Assembly (NCBI GenBank): GCA_026387455.1
Contig: JAPLLR010000048.1
Span: forward strand, 1 to 34,523
Length of the DNA stretch: 34,523 nt
Direction of reading: 5' to 3'
Source of the DNA: Candidatus Omnitrophota bacterium
GTDB lineage: Bacteria > Omnitrophota > Gorgyraeia > Gygaellales > Profunditerraquicolaceae
The notes beneath the pieces were generated by a model that saw nothing but the letters and a program-made list of their open reading frames with translations, did not search any database and was not told the DNA's origin. Shown piece by piece: positions 25,772 to 34,523 of this stretch (positions are counted from its first letter, which is position 1; the number at the start of each line of letters is the position of its first letter). The translations under genes were made by a program, and so were the position numbers.

Positions 25772-26464
25772 TTATGACCTTAAAATACGCGACAATCCCA
25801 TCAGGTCAGCTTTCTCAAGGCTCACCCCGGCGCGATATTCATTCTCTCCTGAAGACTTTGTCCAGATGACCTCGCCTCTGGTATAAACAGGCTCTCCCTT
25901 GTCAGGTATCTGCAGCCAGATCTCAACCGTCGTTCGCGGCTTTAATTCTTCTTTGGTGCTAAAACCTATACCCTTGGCGCTCACATCCTCAGTAAGAGCC
26001 GAGCTTTCTTTGCCGCTGTTTAAATCCAATAACCGCACAGGAAGCTTTGCCACAAATCTCTGGAAAATCCTTTTATCTTCCACGGGCTCATCTGCTGTTT
26101 CTTCAGGTTCAAAATCCTGCCACCAGATCTTCTCCACTGCCTCGCGGTGATTCTCGCATATGTAGCGGTAAATCTTCTCCTTATCACTGTCAGCGATCCG
26201 GGTAAAATACAGACCGTAAGTATTCACCCCTTCGCTATGTTTATGCCAGCCTACCCAGGCCTCAATATTCAGCACAAAAGTATCTGTTAACGCTAGGGTT
26301 AGCTTAATGAACTTATCTTCCGGCAACTTAAGCGGCAGGGAAAATTTGACCCCCATCATACTAATATCATCAACATAACAGTTGACGAACTTCTCAGCCC
26401 CGGCCAACTTCATCTGCGCCGGGAGACCGACTTTCCATCTGGCAAAACGCCTGCGGATCTCCAT
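25772..26464 (-). CDS. Tandem PilZ-domain protein
   Basis: A 230-residue cytoplasmic protein with two PilZ-like domains. PilZ domains bind cyclic di-GMP through an RxxxR motif and a D/NxSxxG motif. In domain 1 these are the R4-R6/R9 cluster (RRRFAR) and D33-I-S35-M-M-G38; in domain 2 they are R132-I-F-Q-R136 and D160-V-S162-A-K-G165. Both appear intact, so both may bind ligand. Domain 1 is clearly homologous to the single-domain neighbour at 26554-26922 (the A.V.W...SEG.NTYGL.F segment is shared). AAAGGAG precedes the ATG, and a promoter lies in the 89-bp gap upstream. The output (motility, polysaccharide or adhesion) is not evident. Confidence 0.88.
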   Translation of the reverse strand: MEIRRRFARWKVGLPAQMKLAGAEKFVNCYVDDISMMGVKFSLPLKLPEDKFIKLTLALTDTFVLNIEAWVGWHKHSEGVNTYGLYFTRIADSDKEKIYRYICENHREAVEKIWWQDFEPEETADEPVEDKRIFQRFVAKLPVRLLDLNSGKESSALTEDVSAKGIGFSTKEELKPRTTVEIWLQIPDKGEPVYTRGEVIWTKSSGENEYRAGVSLEKADLMGLSRILRS

Positions 26465-26512
26465 CTGACTTACTCCTTTGCATCAGCAGCGCATGCGCGC
26501 CCCGACGCTTTT

Positions 26513-26540
26513 ATCTTACCAAAGATTAATAATTTGTCAA
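26513..26540 (-). promoter_or_regulatory. Promoter for the tandem PilZ gene
   Basis: On the minus strand a perfect TTGACA (26535-26540) is followed after 16 bp by TAAGAT (26513-26518; 4 of 6), in the gap between the two PilZ genes. A GCGCATGCGC palindrome also lies in the gap. Confidence 0.5.
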
Positions 26541-26553
26541 AACTCTAATTATG

Positions 26554-26922
26554 CTAAACATCTCTCCACCACTGCTTATTTAGCTGTTCTCTCTCCTGTT
26601 CAGAAAAATTAGCATTAATATACTGCTCGACCTTTTTCCTCTGAACTTCATCAGCTTTGCTGAAAATCAACCCATAAGTATTCTTCCCCTCACTCTTCTC
26701 TTGCCAGGCCACATGAGCGCCTACATCAAAAGTAAGAGCATCTCCTAAGACAAGACTGGCGTCAGAGAAAACCTCAGGAAAAAGATCCCTCCTCAAAGAG
26801 ATCCGCATCCCCTTTGTACTGATATCCTCAACTACACAAGGAATGAAATTGGGATGATCCCCAACCTGCAACTGCGCTTCTTTGCTTACCGTCCACCTTG
26901 GTACACATCTGCGTTCACCCAT
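26554..26922 (-). CDS. Single PilZ-domain protein
   Basis: A 122-residue protein consisting of one PilZ domain with a short helical tail. The c-di-GMP motifs are ERRCVPRW (R4, R5, R9) and D33-I-S35-T-K-G38. The motif spacing is identical to that of domain 1 in the adjacent double-PilZ protein, and both end in a WW(R/Q)D segment, so the two genes are probably related by duplication. AAGGAG lies about 8 bases before the ATG. It follows a secreted orphan protein by 28 bp and may share its transcript. Confidence 0.87.
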   Translation of the reverse strand: MGERRCVPRWTVSKEAQLQVGDHPNFIPCVVEDISTKGMRISLRRDLFPEVFSDASLVLGDALTFDVGAHVAWQEKSEGKNTYGLIFSKADEVQRKKVEQYINANFSEQEREQLNKQWWRDV

Positions 26923-28520: not shown

Positions 28521-29348
28521 TTACGGCTGCACATACGGTACATAAGGCTGCGCAGGTGTCGTCATTTTAATACCCTGCGGAATTACAAATTGTGAATTAA
28601 TTTGATTAATAAAATAATTTCTCTCCCAAACACGGGGGACCTCTGCTTTATATAGTTGCGTGCCTAATGGTTTATACTGAATGCCTGGTAATTCTACAGA
28701 AGGAACCCTAAATAATTCCTGTCGGGTAAAGGTTGGCTTAGATTGGTTAACATTATGAAAATCTTGCCTACTAGGCATAAGAATATCTACCTTATTGGGC
28801 GTATACAAGTTATTAATCTGTTCAGAAAAATAACCTATCTTTAATAGCGGTGGCGGGGTTAACCCCATATTATTCATAATTGCTTTGACAGAGGCCGGGT
28901 TGTCAAAATATCCCATCTTACCTGCGTGCCTCACGCCAGAGAATATTTCATAGTGAGCTGTTAGGTCTTTTGCTATGGAATATGGGATCTTAAAGAAAAT
29001 CAAGTCAGAAGAAGATCCAATAATAACCGGCTCTCTTATTGATGCTTTTCTGAGATGCTCTGTTGTTGCACCAATAGCAAATCCCGGATCGCCGGTTCCA
29101 ATATAAAGATCAGCTTTGATTGTAGGATCCAAATATTTATTTTGAGCCCATTCACAGGCTAATGGCACAAGTCTATTAGCATAACTATTGCCTACAACAA
29201 ATAACTGACGATGAGACAAGTTAGCATCAATACGAGCTTTTCGTATATCTTCTCCCATCCTCTCCACGTCCTTTTGAGTGCCAATAACAAGATTACCTGA
29301 AGTATTGCCTTCTCTTATTTCAATCTTACCGTAAGATAACTTATTCAT
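28521..29348 (-). CDS. Unrecognised protein, possibly alpha/beta-hydrolase-like
   Basis: About 275 residues from the ATG at 29348. The frame stays open upstream to a TTG at 29411 (296 residues), overlapping the giant gene by 50 bp. A TTG at 29372 with AGGGG before it is another option, so the start is uncertain. No family is recognised with confidence. Counting from 29348, FVVGNSYAN (Ser55) resembles a nucleophile elbow, GTGDPG (Asp87) could supply the acid, and SGVRHAGKMGYF (His141) the histidine, in the order seen in lipase-like hydrolases. This is a weak motif argument. The C-terminus is Pro/Gln-rich. No signal peptide is visible, although the neighbours are envelope proteins. Confidence 0.6.
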   Translation of the reverse strand: MNKLSYGKIEIREGNTSGNLVIGTQKDVERMGEDIRKARIDANLSHRQLFVVGNSYANRLVPLACEWAQNKYLDPTIKADLYIGTGDPGFAIGATTEHLRKASIREPVIIGSSSDLIFFKIPYSIAKDLTAHYEIFSGVRHAGKMGYFDNPASVKAIMNNMGLTPPPLLKIGYFSEQINNLYTPNKVDILMPSRQDFHNVNQSKPTFTRQELFRVPSVELPGIQYKPLGTQLYKAEVPRVWERNYFINQINSQFVIPQGIKMTTPAQPYVPYVQP

Positions 29349-29361
29349 CAGATTCAAGGTA

Positions 29362-31644
29362 TCAGTTAACAAAAGCCCCTGGGACAACCCGGGCTGATGG
29401 GTAATCGACAATTTTGCTCGCTAACACAAACTTAGCTGCTTCGCGGACAACAGGTGAATCATCTTTAAAACTTAGAAGTAACGGCCTTACTACTTCTTTT
29501 CCAGTAACCCTACCTAAATTCTCAACTGTAGCCTGCCGCACAATTGCCGATTGATCACTCAACTTCGGTATCAACATCTCCGGGATCTGCGGCGACTTCA
29601 CCCTACCCGCAACCTCAACCGCAGCCTGGCGCACCTGCCAATGATTATCATTCAACAAAGGCTTGATATGCTCAAGGAGATTTGGCTGCTTAACCACTCC
29701 ATCTGCAAACCCTAAAACCGCAGCCTGACGTACCTGCCAGTGGGCATCATTCAATAAAGGCTTAATATTCTCGACGAGATTAGGCTGTTTAGTAATTCTT
29801 CCCGCAAGACCCGCAACCGCTGCCTGACGCACCATAAAATTATTGTCTTTTAATCCCGTAGTCAAAACCCCTAGACAATCGGGAGAGTTAACCATACTTA
29901 GATTAAATAACGCTATGCCGCGCACATACGGACTAACATCAGTCTGCGCCATTTTTTTTATCGGTTCAACTGCTGCCGGAGTAATTTGATTGCGGCCCAT
30001 TACCTGAAGCGCGCCAAACCTGATTTCCCAAACCGGATCTTTTAGAAGCGGCTCAACCATCTGAGCGCCAATCGCGCTGTTTGCCTGCGCAAAGCCGGAT
30101 AAAATTCCTAAACGCGTATTCAAATCTCCTTTGGAGAGAATTTTTCCCAGCGGTTCTTGTAATTGCGGATAAGTGTCTATGTGCTGGGAAAGTAAAATTG
30201 CCGCACAAGAAGAAACCCCGGCCGAACTGTCGCTAATTTTTCCATTAATTCTATCAAACAACCAGGGATTTTCTCCGACACGGCCCCCAAGCACAGCAAC
30301 TGCGGTCTGCCTTATCTCTGCGCTCTTATCATCCAACATATCTGCAATCCAGCCCATTTTTTCTTTATCTAAATTTTGCGCGAGCGCCAAAATCGCTGCC
30401 TGCTTTAAAGTTAAATCTTTGCCGCTTAAAAAGCTTTTAACTGCTTCCTTCACAACGAGTTGCTCACTTACGCCTAGAGCATCAAGGCAATATATTCTAA
30501 CATTATTATCCTGTTCTTTAGCCAATTGTTCAATGATTAAATTAGATATTTTCAAATCCTCATCTTGTTTTGCCGAAAGCGCTTTAATTGCCCCGATACG
30601 CACCAAAGGCTCGCTATCAGCTAACCCTTCTTTAAGTATTTGTGTTACTCTTGGATGATCGACCTGACATATAACTAGCATCACCACCTGCCGCACCGAT
30701 GGATCCGGATCATTTTTCTCTCTTACTGCCAGCTCAAAAAGATTTTCACTTTCGATTTGCGATAAAGCCACCAGTATCCTGATCTTTCTCTCCGCATCTA
30801 TGCCTTTTTTTAGAGCGCCTTCTAAATATGGCGCTGCCTGCTTATCTTGCAATATCCCTAGCGCGGTTATCGCCTGGTTAACAACTGAAACATTATTATC
30901 ATTAAGAGCATTTCTTAATGTTTCAAATATGCGCTGGCCTTTAAAATTTCTTAACGCGGCAATTGCATATGTTCGCACTTCATCGTTTTGATCATGTGCA
31001 GCCGTAACTAGCGCATCAACTACTTCCTCGCCTTCTAAAGACATTAAATAAGAAATCGCGGCACAGCGTTTCAGCTCCGGAGAGTTCTTTGCATCTTTTA
31101 AAACTTGAAGCAGAAAACTTGTAGCCAGGGGATCATTCAACTGCGCCAATGAAAACGCGGCATTACAACTTATCAAAGTTATAGTCTTTGCATCCGGATC
31201 CTGATCACCTATTTTGTAATCTCCATTAAGCCCTTTGACTAAAATATCTTTTCCCGAAGGATCCCCCATCCTCGCTAAGACTCTGGCCGAGTGAATTGCC
31301 AGTTTAAAATCGCTAACGCTTAAGAGCCGTTGATAAGCCCTTAAAAAATCTTCTCTAGTTATATCGAATCCACGGCAAAATTCATCCGGCACTAATACGG
31401 CGTTGCTGTCAAAATCATAGTGGTTTTTTATATATACTTCTGCTATTTTCTTCCTTACTTCATTATCCGGATTTTTATAATTTTGCATGCGCACCGGCAA
31501 CCAGCAATAAGCGAGGCCTTTGGCAAATCTTGCTTCCGAATATGAGGTACAGCCTGAGTTAAACAACGCAGTAACAAATAAAACCACAACCAGCAAAAAT
31601 CTAGGCATGTAATTCAAGAATCTTATCCGCTGGGGACTCTTCAT
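29362..31644 (-). other. Possible independent HEAT-repeat lipoprotein inside the giant frame
   Basis: An in-frame ATG at 31644 starts MKSPQRIRFLNYMPRFLL, followed by a hydrophobic core and a cysteine (FNSGC), much like a lipoprotein signal peptide, although the -3 residue is Asn rather than Leu. GGGG lies about 5 bases upstream. From here 760 residues, mostly HEAT repeats, could be a separate exported lipoprotein. No stop codon separates it from the upstream reading frame. Confidence 0.4.
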
Positions 31645-34523
31645 AAAATCCCCGCCGTTGTCGCGGTTGCCATTTACGCTCACCACTGCGCCTAACGCGC
31701 AGGCGCCGAGAACCCCTATTCCACCTACGAGGTGAAATAGGGTTACGCCAATCCCCACCAGCCCAAGTAGCGCGATAAGGTTTTGGCCGGAACCGTCCCC
31801 ACTCCCGCGTTTTCTTGATTTCTTTTGCGCTTTCGCGATTTCCTGCTCGAATTTCTTCAGTTCTTTCTGCCGGTGCGCCGCGCGCTTATTGCGTATCTTC
31901 TCAAAACCAGGCATCTCAAATAGGTCTTCTGAATCCAAATCTAGCGTAGTCCTCTTTATCCCGTCTAAGGATAAGGAACGGTTCTTTATTCTGACAGTAG
32001 GCATAGCAGGGACTATTTCTACCGGCTTCCCTGCGACAACTTTACCCGGAGTTTGCGGCTGCTTAGTGTTATCTTGCGATTTTTGGGAGAGCTTTGCAAA
32101 TCTTTCTCTAAGTATGGACAGCTGTAAAATGAGCACCCCGATTATACCTACCATGGTAATGATCGCTACCCCAATAACAAGCCACAATACAGCAGAGAAA
32201 CTAAGCACAGCAAGGTGCGGCGCAATAGCGAATGCGGACGGGCTGGCCCTTGAAAACGGCAAGTAAGGCTTATCTGCGAGAGGATATTCTTTAATTCCCG
32301 GCGCCGCCAAAGCGCAGCCTAATATAGATAAAGTTGCAACAAACGATAGAAAACCGAGCAGACCGATAAAGGTATAACCGCTAGCAACCTTTGTATCCCT
32401 AATATAACGTTGATCGGGGATCGTCCTCCCGTCGCTAAGAGCATTGCGCAGCCGGCTATCTATTGCAGGGCCATGATGTACCGGGCTGTCCAGCCCTTTG
32501 GTCGCCGACCAGAAAAGAATATCCTTGGTCGATCTTATAAAAATAGAACGGTAGGTATTCTCTCCTACGAGAAAAGTTATCTCTACAAAATTATACTCGG
32601 CATTAGTATGGACAATTTTATAATGGGCATTGATGATGATTCCCAGCGCCGTCTTCAGGGGTATACCTGTCCCGCTTAAATCCTTTTCGATTAACCCGCC
32701 TCTGATAAAATCTTGAGTGATTCTTTTCTCTGATTCCCCTGTAGCCCTGGCAAGCTCTTTTATCAAAGAATGTTGCATAAGCATGTCTTCAAAAGGAAGT
32801 TGCGTTTTGGCCTTACCTGATCCTTGCTGCGGATTCGCCTTGGTTTTTCTTGCTGCTGCAACTACTGCAAAAATCAACCCCGCTACCACTAATACGCCAA
32901 CACCTACCACTAGCCAGAACGGGAATCCCATAATGGTGGATGGAATCACTACGGAAAAAAGCCCTTCTGCGCGAGGCTGGATTTGCGCGTATGCACCTTT
33001 ATCAAGCGGAACATTTATATTTGCAAGATGCTTGTTTGAAAAAGCCCCGAAACAAAGACGAGGGAATACGGTTATGTCAAAACTATCTTTCAGTAAAAAC
33101 AGGGCGCCACCTACACAGCCTAACCCCGGCCCGATATCCTCCAGTATAGTTCCGTCGTCGAGGAACCTAGCTTTTTCCCCGCCGAATGGCGATAAAAACT
33201 TGACTTGCAACTCGCGCAGCATATTGATTACCGGCTTCCAAGAGCAAGTGTTATCTACGCAAGGCCTGGGTTCACCTGCGACCGATGGGATATCGATTAT
33301 AATCGCCCTGGTTTTTACATCCCGCAGCTTCTCAAAATTAGCCCCAAGGATAAAAACTACCCCGGCGGCGCTCTCTAAGTAATTTTTGATATTTCCTAAA
33401 TAAATTTCCGCGGCCTCCATGTCAAGCCTAAAAATATCCCCTTCGTTGTTTTCATTATATACCGCTCCTACATGCACAAAAAACGGTACCTTCCCGTACT
33501 GCCTAGCAATTATCCTGGCTAATGACTCTCTATGTTTTGCGATATCTTGCCATTTGATTGATCTTTGCGAAACCTCACCATACCTGCCTTCTTCAATACC
33601 GCGAATTTCCACCTGTTTGCTGAAATCTCTCTCTTTAATTAAGCTATCCGCGCGGAAAAGGTAACCACCATCTTTCAAATAAGCTAAACCTCTATCGTAT
33701 TCACGAGAGTTCACTTCATCTGTCCGCTCATAAGTATCGCACTCATCATCATAAGGAGCGATATCCCTTTCTCCCCATTTCTCTGTAAGTACCAAATATT
33801 GAAACGGGATATCTTCTGCCTTGCGAAACATCCCTATAAGCTCGGCCTTCTCTCCTAGGGCCCTTAGAAAATAAATAAGCATGGCAGCATTAGCGAAGCA
33901 TGTCTTAAACCTGAAATCTCTTACCGCTGCCTCAACCCTTAGGATGTCTATTTCAACTTTGCTTTCTGTTGACAGATGAGATGTGTTCGAAATGACTGCA
34001 CCAAGACCAAAGGTAACAAGAATTAATGCAGGGGGGGCATGAATCAATCCGGCGATAAGTATCGGTGCTAAAATAAACACAAGCACCGCCAGCCCAAGGA
34101 ACAAGAGTAAGCCTTGGGCATGATTCGCCATTATCTTCTTAGCTATTCTACTAAAGAGAACACTCCGGTTTGTTTCCCACTCCAAAACAGTACCCTGCTC
34201 TATTAAAGGTAAGAGGTTGAATGCGCCTGTGTCCGGGACAAAATCAGCAGTTATTCCCGCCCAAGGATAGGCCTCGATACTCTTAAAGTAAAATCGGCCT
34301 GAATCAGCATAGTAATTGGCTGCCACGATCCCCTCAGGCGTAACACACAGATCTGCGACCTGGCCGGGATCATCTATGATCCGACGGATCTTTATATCGA
34401 TCCCTTTCCGCCTCTTTATTCCATTAATACTTTCTTCCAGCTTCTCCTCTTTCAGGTTATTGGGATACTCGAAAGCTATTGCCTGTATATCCGTCACCTG
34501 ATTATCGGAAATCACTTTTAAGA
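29362..34523 (-). CDS. Giant multi-module membrane protein with C-terminal HEAT repeats (5' end beyond window)
   Basis: At least 1719 codons are open to the window edge. The GTG at 34515 has no visible ribosome site and is probably internal. Residues are counted from that GTG. Hydrophobic segments lie at about 134-178, 531-555, 712-735, 768-800 and 911-945. Segment 195-262 resembles a transglutaminase-like core (C206, LRALG), though the catalytic His appears missing. Residues 810-910 are low-complexity and basic. Residues 958-989 look like a new lipoprotein-type signal (C989). HEAT repeats fill about 1050-1717, with recurrent V-R-Q-A-A-V. HEAT superhelices usually bind proteins. I do not recognise the whole architecture. 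It may be one giant polypeptide or two in-frame genes (see 29362-31644). Function unknown. Confidence 0.8.
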   Translation of the reverse strand, partial: LKVISDNQVTDIQAIAFEYPNNLKEEKLEESINGIKRRKGIDIKIRRIIDDPGQVADLCVTPEGIVAANYYADSGRFYFKSIEAYPWAGITADFVPDTGAFNLLPLIEQGTVLEWETNRSVLFSRIAKKIMANHAQGLLLFLGLAVLVFILAPILIAGLIHAPPALILVTFGLGAVISNTSHLSTESKVEIDILRVEAAVRDFRFKTCFANAAMLIYFLRALGEKAELIGMFRKAEDIPFQYLVLTEKWGERDIAPYDDECDTYERTDEVNSREYDRGLAYLKDGGYLFRADSLIKERDFSKQVEIRGIEEGRYGEVSQRSIKWQDIAKHRESLARIIARQYGKVPFFVHVGAVYNENNEGDIFRLDMEAAEIYLGNIKNYLESAAGVVFILGANFEKLRDVKTRAIIIDIPSVAGEPRPCVDNTCSWKPVINMLRELQVKFLSPFGGEKARFLDDGTILEDIGPGLGCVGGALFLLKDSFDITVFPRLCFGAFSNKHLANINVPLDKGAYAQIQPRAEGLFSVVIPSTIMGFPFWLVVGVGVLVVAGLIFAVVAAARKTKANPQQGSGKAKTQLPFEDMLMQHSLIKELARATGESEKRITQDFIRGGLIEKDLSGTGIPLKTALGIIINAHYKIVHTNAEYNFVEITFLVGENTYRSIFIRSTKDILFWSATKGLDSPVHHGPAIDSRLRNALSDGRTIPDQRYIRDTKVASGYTFIGLLGFLSFVATLSILGCALAAPGIKEYPLADKPYLPFSRASPSAFAIAPHLAVLSFSAVLWLVIGVAIITMVGIIGVLILQLSILRERFAKLSQKSQDNTKQPQTPGKVVAGKPVEIVPAMPTVRIKNRSLSLDGIKRTTLDLDSEDLFEMPGFEKIRNKRAAHRQKELKKFEQEIAKAQKKSRKRGSGDGSGQNLIALLGLVGIGVTLFHLVGGIGVLGACALGAVVSVNGNRDNGGDFMKSPQRIRFLNYMPRFLLVVVLFVTALFNSGCTSYSEARFAKGLAYCWLPVRMQNYKNPDNEVRKKIAEVYIKNHYDFDSNAVLVPDEFCRGFDITREDFLRAYQRLLSVSDFKLAIHSARVLARMGDPSGKDILVKGLNGDYKIGDQDPDAKTITLISCNAAFSLAQLNDPLATSFLLQVLKDAKNSPELKRCAAISYLMSLEGEEVVDALVTAAHDQNDEVRTYAIAALRNFKGQRIFETLRNALNDNNVSVVNQAITALGILQDKQAAPYLEGALKKGIDAERKIRILVALSQIESENLFELAVREKNDPDPSVRQVVMLVICQVDHPRVTQILKEGLADSEPLVRIGAIKALSAKQDEDLKISNLIIEQLAKEQDNNVRIYCLDALGVSEQLVVKEAVKSFLSGKDLTLKQAAILALAQNLDKEKMGWIADMLDDKSAEIRQTAVAVLGGRVGENPWLFDRINGKISDSSAGVSSCAAILLSQHIDTYPQLQEPLGKILSKGDLNTRLGILSGFAQANSAIGAQMVEPLLKDPVWEIRFGALQVMGRNQITPAAVEPIKKMAQTDVSPYVRGIALFNLSMVNSPDCLGVLTTGLKDNNFMVRQAAVAGLAGRITKQPNLVENIKPLLNDAHWQVRQAAVLGFADGVVKQPNLLEHIKPLLNDNHWQVRQAAVEVAGRVKSPQIPEMLIPKLSDQSAIVRQATVENLGRVTGKEVVRPLLLSFKDDSPVVREAAKFVLASKIVDYPSARVVPGAFVN
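29621..29818 (-). repeat. Two tandem 99-bp units within the HEAT region
   Basis: Two adjacent 33-codon units (29621-29719 and 29720-29818) are highly similar at both DNA and protein level. Both encode KQPNL(V/L)E(N/H)IKPLLND, then HWQVRQAAV. Flanking units continue with the same or a nearly equal period but more divergence, so these two look recently duplicated or homogenised. Confidence 0.8.

Follow-up and report, generated by a model that had tools for sequence, protein, structure and literature searches.

The window analysed here (34,523 nucleotides, the complete contig C25 of a 1.68 Mb Candidatus Omnitrophota genome in 72 contigs) carries a minus-strand frame of 1,719 stop-free codons that is most likely the tail of a giant gene of at least 41.7 thousand residues, headed by a frame that lies on a different contig of this genome, C62. 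Taken as a whole, the reading that we consider likely is of a C62-headed gene whose product would be a membrane-threaded chain, of which the window holds the last part.

The window frame and its modules

The frame (29365-34521, minus strand, with its stop codon at 29362-29364) has an open 5' end, the window being the complete contig, in agreement with a sequence-only reading that had described more than 1.7 thousand residues open at the window edge; the contig cannot be read past that edge, and the frame was not found to end shortly upstream with every module in a known family. The membrane segments, soluble modules of no recognised family, basic linkers and HEAT tail listed in that reading are all present (Table 1), with eight hydrophobic segments in a hydropathy scan, and most modules indeed lack a Pfam family match. 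Its doubt as to an artefact does not hold for the frame itself and does hold for the 3' end, where an assembly or mutational fault is seen. The modules are 31-65% identical to giant frames in related genomes and those tested show pN of 0.29-0.41 against pS of 0.67-0.86, which is purifying selection; the frame is thus a coding gene rather than a chance open frame. It is open in translation table 11, and a recoded stop is unneeded.

Table 1. Features of the giant frame at the window edge (aa, residue numbers within the 1,719-codon frame)
Feature	Coordinates	Strand	Remarks
3'-terminal part of giant frame, 1,719 codons	29362..34521	-	open at contig edge
aa 1-130, C-terminal module part	34132..34521	-	first 41 residues 61% identical to C68 3' end; CheD-like by eye only
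aa 138-181, membrane hairpin linker ILAPILIAG..HAPP..LGAVIS	33979..34110	-	same style as C62 and C68 hairpins
aa 187-301, module only in giant or large Omnitrophota frames	33619..33963	-	Cys..His/Gln..Asp pattern
aa 318-513, module of unknown family	32983..33570	-	homologues in G145 and G009
aa 524-575, membrane segment, then basic low-complexity linker	32797..32952	-	
aa 575-700, soluble module without match	32422..32799	-	
aa 712-800, membrane hairpin	32122..32388	-	
aa 800-912, basic linker	31786..32124	-	
aa 913-949, membrane hairpin	31675..31785	-	best held-out match to C62 hairpin model, 10.7 bits
aa 960-991, internal signal-peptide-like segment, lipobox-like LFNSGC	31549..31644	-	
aa 992-1116, conserved pre-HEAT region	31174..31548	-	
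aa 1117-1700, HEAT repeats	29422..31173	-	PF13646, E=1.3e-61
Frame break between HEAT end and last domain, about 125 nt shorter than in relatives	29362..29411	-	
Former C-terminal domain with Pro-rich tail, no longer in the HEAT frame	28521..29411	-	GNS..VRHAG motifs

In the Pfam scan of the window frame the HEAT repeats (205 bits, seven stretches) stand out, and outside HEAT-type families nothing reached the cut-off. An assignment of the first module to CheD is not supported, as PF03975 has no match in window aa 1-135 or in the C68 end, its sole match, weak and below cut-off, lying in the relative G008. By eye, the aa 187-301 module resembles the transglutaminase/papain group, with the window keeping Cys and Asp and carrying Gln in place of His; fold searches with this module and with the last domain gave no significant match. 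A segment similar to the lipobox-like one precedes HEAT in five relatives (G006, G008, G010, G024 and G031). We also considered and rejected a separate HEAT lipoprotein starting at Met960, ahead of which there is only a weak Shine-Dalgarno-like GGCGGGG, most relatives being in frame upstream. Near the tail, two adjacent genes encode PilZ domains, one of them two (window 25772-26922, minus strand).

Of the 40 related genomes searched, 23 have a match to the window frame, most through HEAT, in open frames of up to 42,913 aa. The aa 187-301 module was encountered in large frames only, among them one of 18,187 aa in G190 (65% identity), a closed one of 3,515 aa in G145 (50%) and one of 45,379 aa in G111 (37%); together with the aa 318-513 module it is 40% identical over 341 aa to the G145 frame, with a match in G009 also. 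The G145 frame further contains the HATPase module of contig C68, described below, in the same order relative to the window module, and has neither HEAT by Pfam nor a head match. Across relatives, module order is little conserved.

Compared with these relatives, the stop region at 29362 is evidently not the ancestral end of the gene. In G005, G009 and G031, the HEAT repeats are followed without a frame change by a domain that bears REGNWSGN, GNS and VRHAG-type motifs and then by a Pro-rich tail; the window keeps the same motifs nearly unchanged in a frame different from that of HEAT, since about 125 nt present in relatives (a length estimated from translations) are absent at the junction, which puts the last domain out of frame. 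The break may be a recent mutation or an assembly fault. G010 differs in sequence at the equivalent place, where it has a GHSAGN elbow. Judged from its retained GNS elbow and VRHAG motif, the last domain is possibly an alpha/beta hydrolase; its structure model (pTM 0.70) has monoglyceride lipase as a match at TM 0.48 with an E-value that is not significant, as is true of every PDB fold match. Named matches to the domain come from Omnitrophota (Ca. Gygaella obscura and a Lac Pavin MAG). A third, SBBM01000015.1 (L050), is labelled 'Planctomycetales bacterium Bin_37_1_1', and its genome (G005) falls in the window's own family, so that the label is likely wrong.

A candidate head on contig C62

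A HATPase-domain search of the window's own genome led to contig C62 and a 39,957-aa frame (13060-132930, 119.9 kb) that runs off the contig 3' end. It begins with a signal peptide, recognised by eye, and a head that is, by profile and by its Cys and His, of the Peptidase C39 type and hence a predicted peptidase: PF03412 scores 35.2 bits against a cut-off of 22, in a match spanning only the second half of the profile, and Cys135 and His222 are invariant in all 35 aligned heads. Of 285 Omnitrophota genomes, 128 have this head; among its strongest matches, at least 33 lie in frames that reach or exceed 5,000 aa, with a maximum of 57,756 aa. Downstream, a hydropathy scan of the C62 frame gives 96 hydrophobic segments, and its modules include response regulator, histidine-kinase ATPase, phosphoribosyltransferase, phosphoglucomutase and glutamate-dehydrogenase types, as well as protein kinase, phosphoesterase and sigma region 4 domains.

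Head and tail can be followed into one another in the relative G010, in which the head contig C2 (57,756 aa), contig C21 (7,365 aa, with neither end closed) and the HEAT-tail contig C23 (2,642 aa) share an overlap of exactly 127 bases at either join, with the frame kept throughout, yielding a joined frame of 57,756 + 7,365 + 2,642 - 83 = 67,680 aa (about 67,700). In seven further genomes (G000, G005, G008, G009, G020, G024 and G031) the head frame is cut by the 3' end of its contig, and the tail or module frame is open at the 5' end of another; no head-to-tail contig overlap was found in G005, G008, G009, G011, G020, G024 or G031. Nor could C62, C68 and C25 be joined directly, as their contig ends show no exact overlap, and codon usage provides no link to the window frame, C62 not being clearly separable from bulk genes. 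Among held-out sequences, the window hairpins score highest with a model of the C62 hairpins built from a hand alignment (10.7 and 9.7 bits; the best of 40 local shuffles reaches 9.5), and weakly suggest a link between the two frames. On this evidence, C62 and C25 are very probably parts of one gene.

Contig C68 carries a 1,036-aa frame that shares one module and the ILAPIL hairpin with C25 (dS 0.48 at the 61% identical C68 end), and its first 60 or so bases contain stops in all frames. Window positions 34397-34523 align with the C68 end (L003 3046-3172) over exactly 127 bases, the length of the G010 overlaps, at only 80% identity. At that identity the two ends look like paralogous modules rather than an assembly overlap, and by its sequence C68 would be a paralogous or intermediate piece.

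Module mosaics and competing readings

The frames of relatives are mosaics of enzyme domains whose motifs are mostly kept (SNF2 DEAH, radical SAM CxxxCxxC, kinase HxD and DFD, SecA Walker A), with a DnaJ module that has HPS instead of HPD. The modules are joined by genome-specific repeated membrane hairpins or by SSP[LVAI] linkers. Very similar hairpins repeat many times within one frame in G006 (L035-L036, GEVCTMLG..SGGLNLRY..LAPP-TM) and in G010 (L037-L038), the type differing per genome, and such repeats could serve as recombination sites between modules. The SSP[LVAI] motif occurs 59 times in the 18,187-aa frame of G190 (L066-L069) against about 1.5 expected, mostly in linkers, 24 times in 13,333 aa of G111 and 23 times in G009; the window frame has none. 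Between giant-gene modules, G009 has a frame change (L040 12053-12059) and G031 an in-frame TAG (L043 5562-5564), from which it follows that a single chain is not universal.

C25 may instead end a second, smaller gene, since the closed G145 frame shows that such genes exist. In that case C68 and C25 would together form a separate medium-sized giant gene, several thousand residues long, in addition to the C62 gene, as suggested by their shared module and hairpin, by the order of their modules in G145 and by the stops at the start of C68. We regard this as rather unlikely, given that the HEAT tail of G010 is joined to a head in one frame and that G145 has neither of these two elements. A decaying collage of captured gene pieces, an open frame devoid of function, is highly improbable: the 3' frame break of the window gene, the stop and frame change in G031 and G009 and the little-conserved module order speak for it, but pN lies well below pS, the SNF2, radical SAM, kinase and SecA modules keep their catalytic motifs, and the head is conserved across the phylum.

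The main mechanistic rival to a membrane-tethered mosaic is a polyprotein, cut by the C39-type peptidase of the head (together with an M50-like module) into modules that act separately. The invariant Cys135 and His222, the unrelated nature of enzymes with mostly intact motifs, the position of the G009 and G031 breaks between modules and the recurring SSP[LVAI] linkers, which could be cleavage sites, are all compatible with such processing. Against it, double-glycine leaders are the normal substrate of C39 peptidases, SSP is a candidate site only and is missing from the window frame, and the accessible part of one study maps peptides to a giant ORF and says nothing on processing (PMC10066038). 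We therefore consider cleavage of this kind unlikely for the giant frame. The proposal in its general form is a distinctly long shot: Omnitrophota giant genes would encode self-processing polyproteins, membrane-threaded chains 40-70 thousand residues long out of which the C39-type head frees dozens of enzyme modules or brings them to maturity.

In the preferred reading of a membrane-tethered mosaic, the C62 frame with its signal peptide and C39-type cysteine peptidase would be the gene start and the window frame the gene end, with an unassembled gap between them. One long chain would enter the membrane at the head and cross it back and forth by way of many short hairpins, such that the soluble modules, many of them enzyme-like, would be arrayed along the membrane, and the last lipobox-type segment would place the HEAT and hydrolase-like tail outside as an anchor or contact surface. 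The product is probably, if by no means securely, an envelope protein; the sidedness of the modules, and any part played in attaching to other cells or attacking them, can be proposed only tentatively.

Relation to known giant genes

The gene had been suspected to exceed the window, and the head frames in its own genome and in G010 point to a length of tens of thousands of residues; its appearance of several proteins joined in frame is likewise borne out. The sequence-only reading erred in holding that it fits no known class, as giant multi-module ORFs are a known Omnitrophota trait (PMC10066038), and the window gene is a member of this group. In that study, ORFs of more than 20 kb are common in the phylum (Seymour et al. 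2023, PMC10066038), with a 39,678-aa protein with 42 transmembrane helices in Ca. Velamenicoccus archaeovorus, whose giant-ORF peptides are up 3-fold in attached cells (PMC10066038). The largest known bacterial genes, of up to about 85,800 aa, are the Omnitrophota genes of West-Roberts et al. 2023, as cited in PMC12057145. The ORFs of PMC10066038 and the gene described here are alike in phylum, size class, many transmembrane helices and few annotated domains; what sets the present case apart is a conserved head (signal peptide and C39 type) and, in this family, metabolic and regulatory enzyme mosaics with a HEAT tail. As to size, the window part is 5.2 kb and open, the C62 frame alone reaches the giant class, and head and tail are joined only in G010. 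Adhesion and polysaccharide-degrading domains, proposed for some Omnitrophota giant ORFs and not defining, were found neither in the window part (Pfam, E<=1) nor in the approximately 98% of C62 that was scanned (E<=0.001). With HEAT-repeat proteins (PF13646) the gene shares the tail domain, which in this case is fused downstream of an internal lipobox-like segment and, in relatives, upstream of a hydrolase-like domain.

What is possibly new is the widely shared head with its invariant Cys and His. The accessible parts of PMC10066038 mention neither a conserved head nor an enzyme mosaic, and West-Roberts et al. 2023 may already describe both. Contigs of metagenome-assembled genomes cut giant genes, with the consequence that tail pieces pass for orphan proteins. 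Giant Omnitrophota genes are known, of unknown role, and have been called poorly conserved, with stress on their adhesion domains, in PMC10066038; a shared head, and enzyme mosaics set between hairpins, offer handles by which to recognise these genes, join their ends and test their function.
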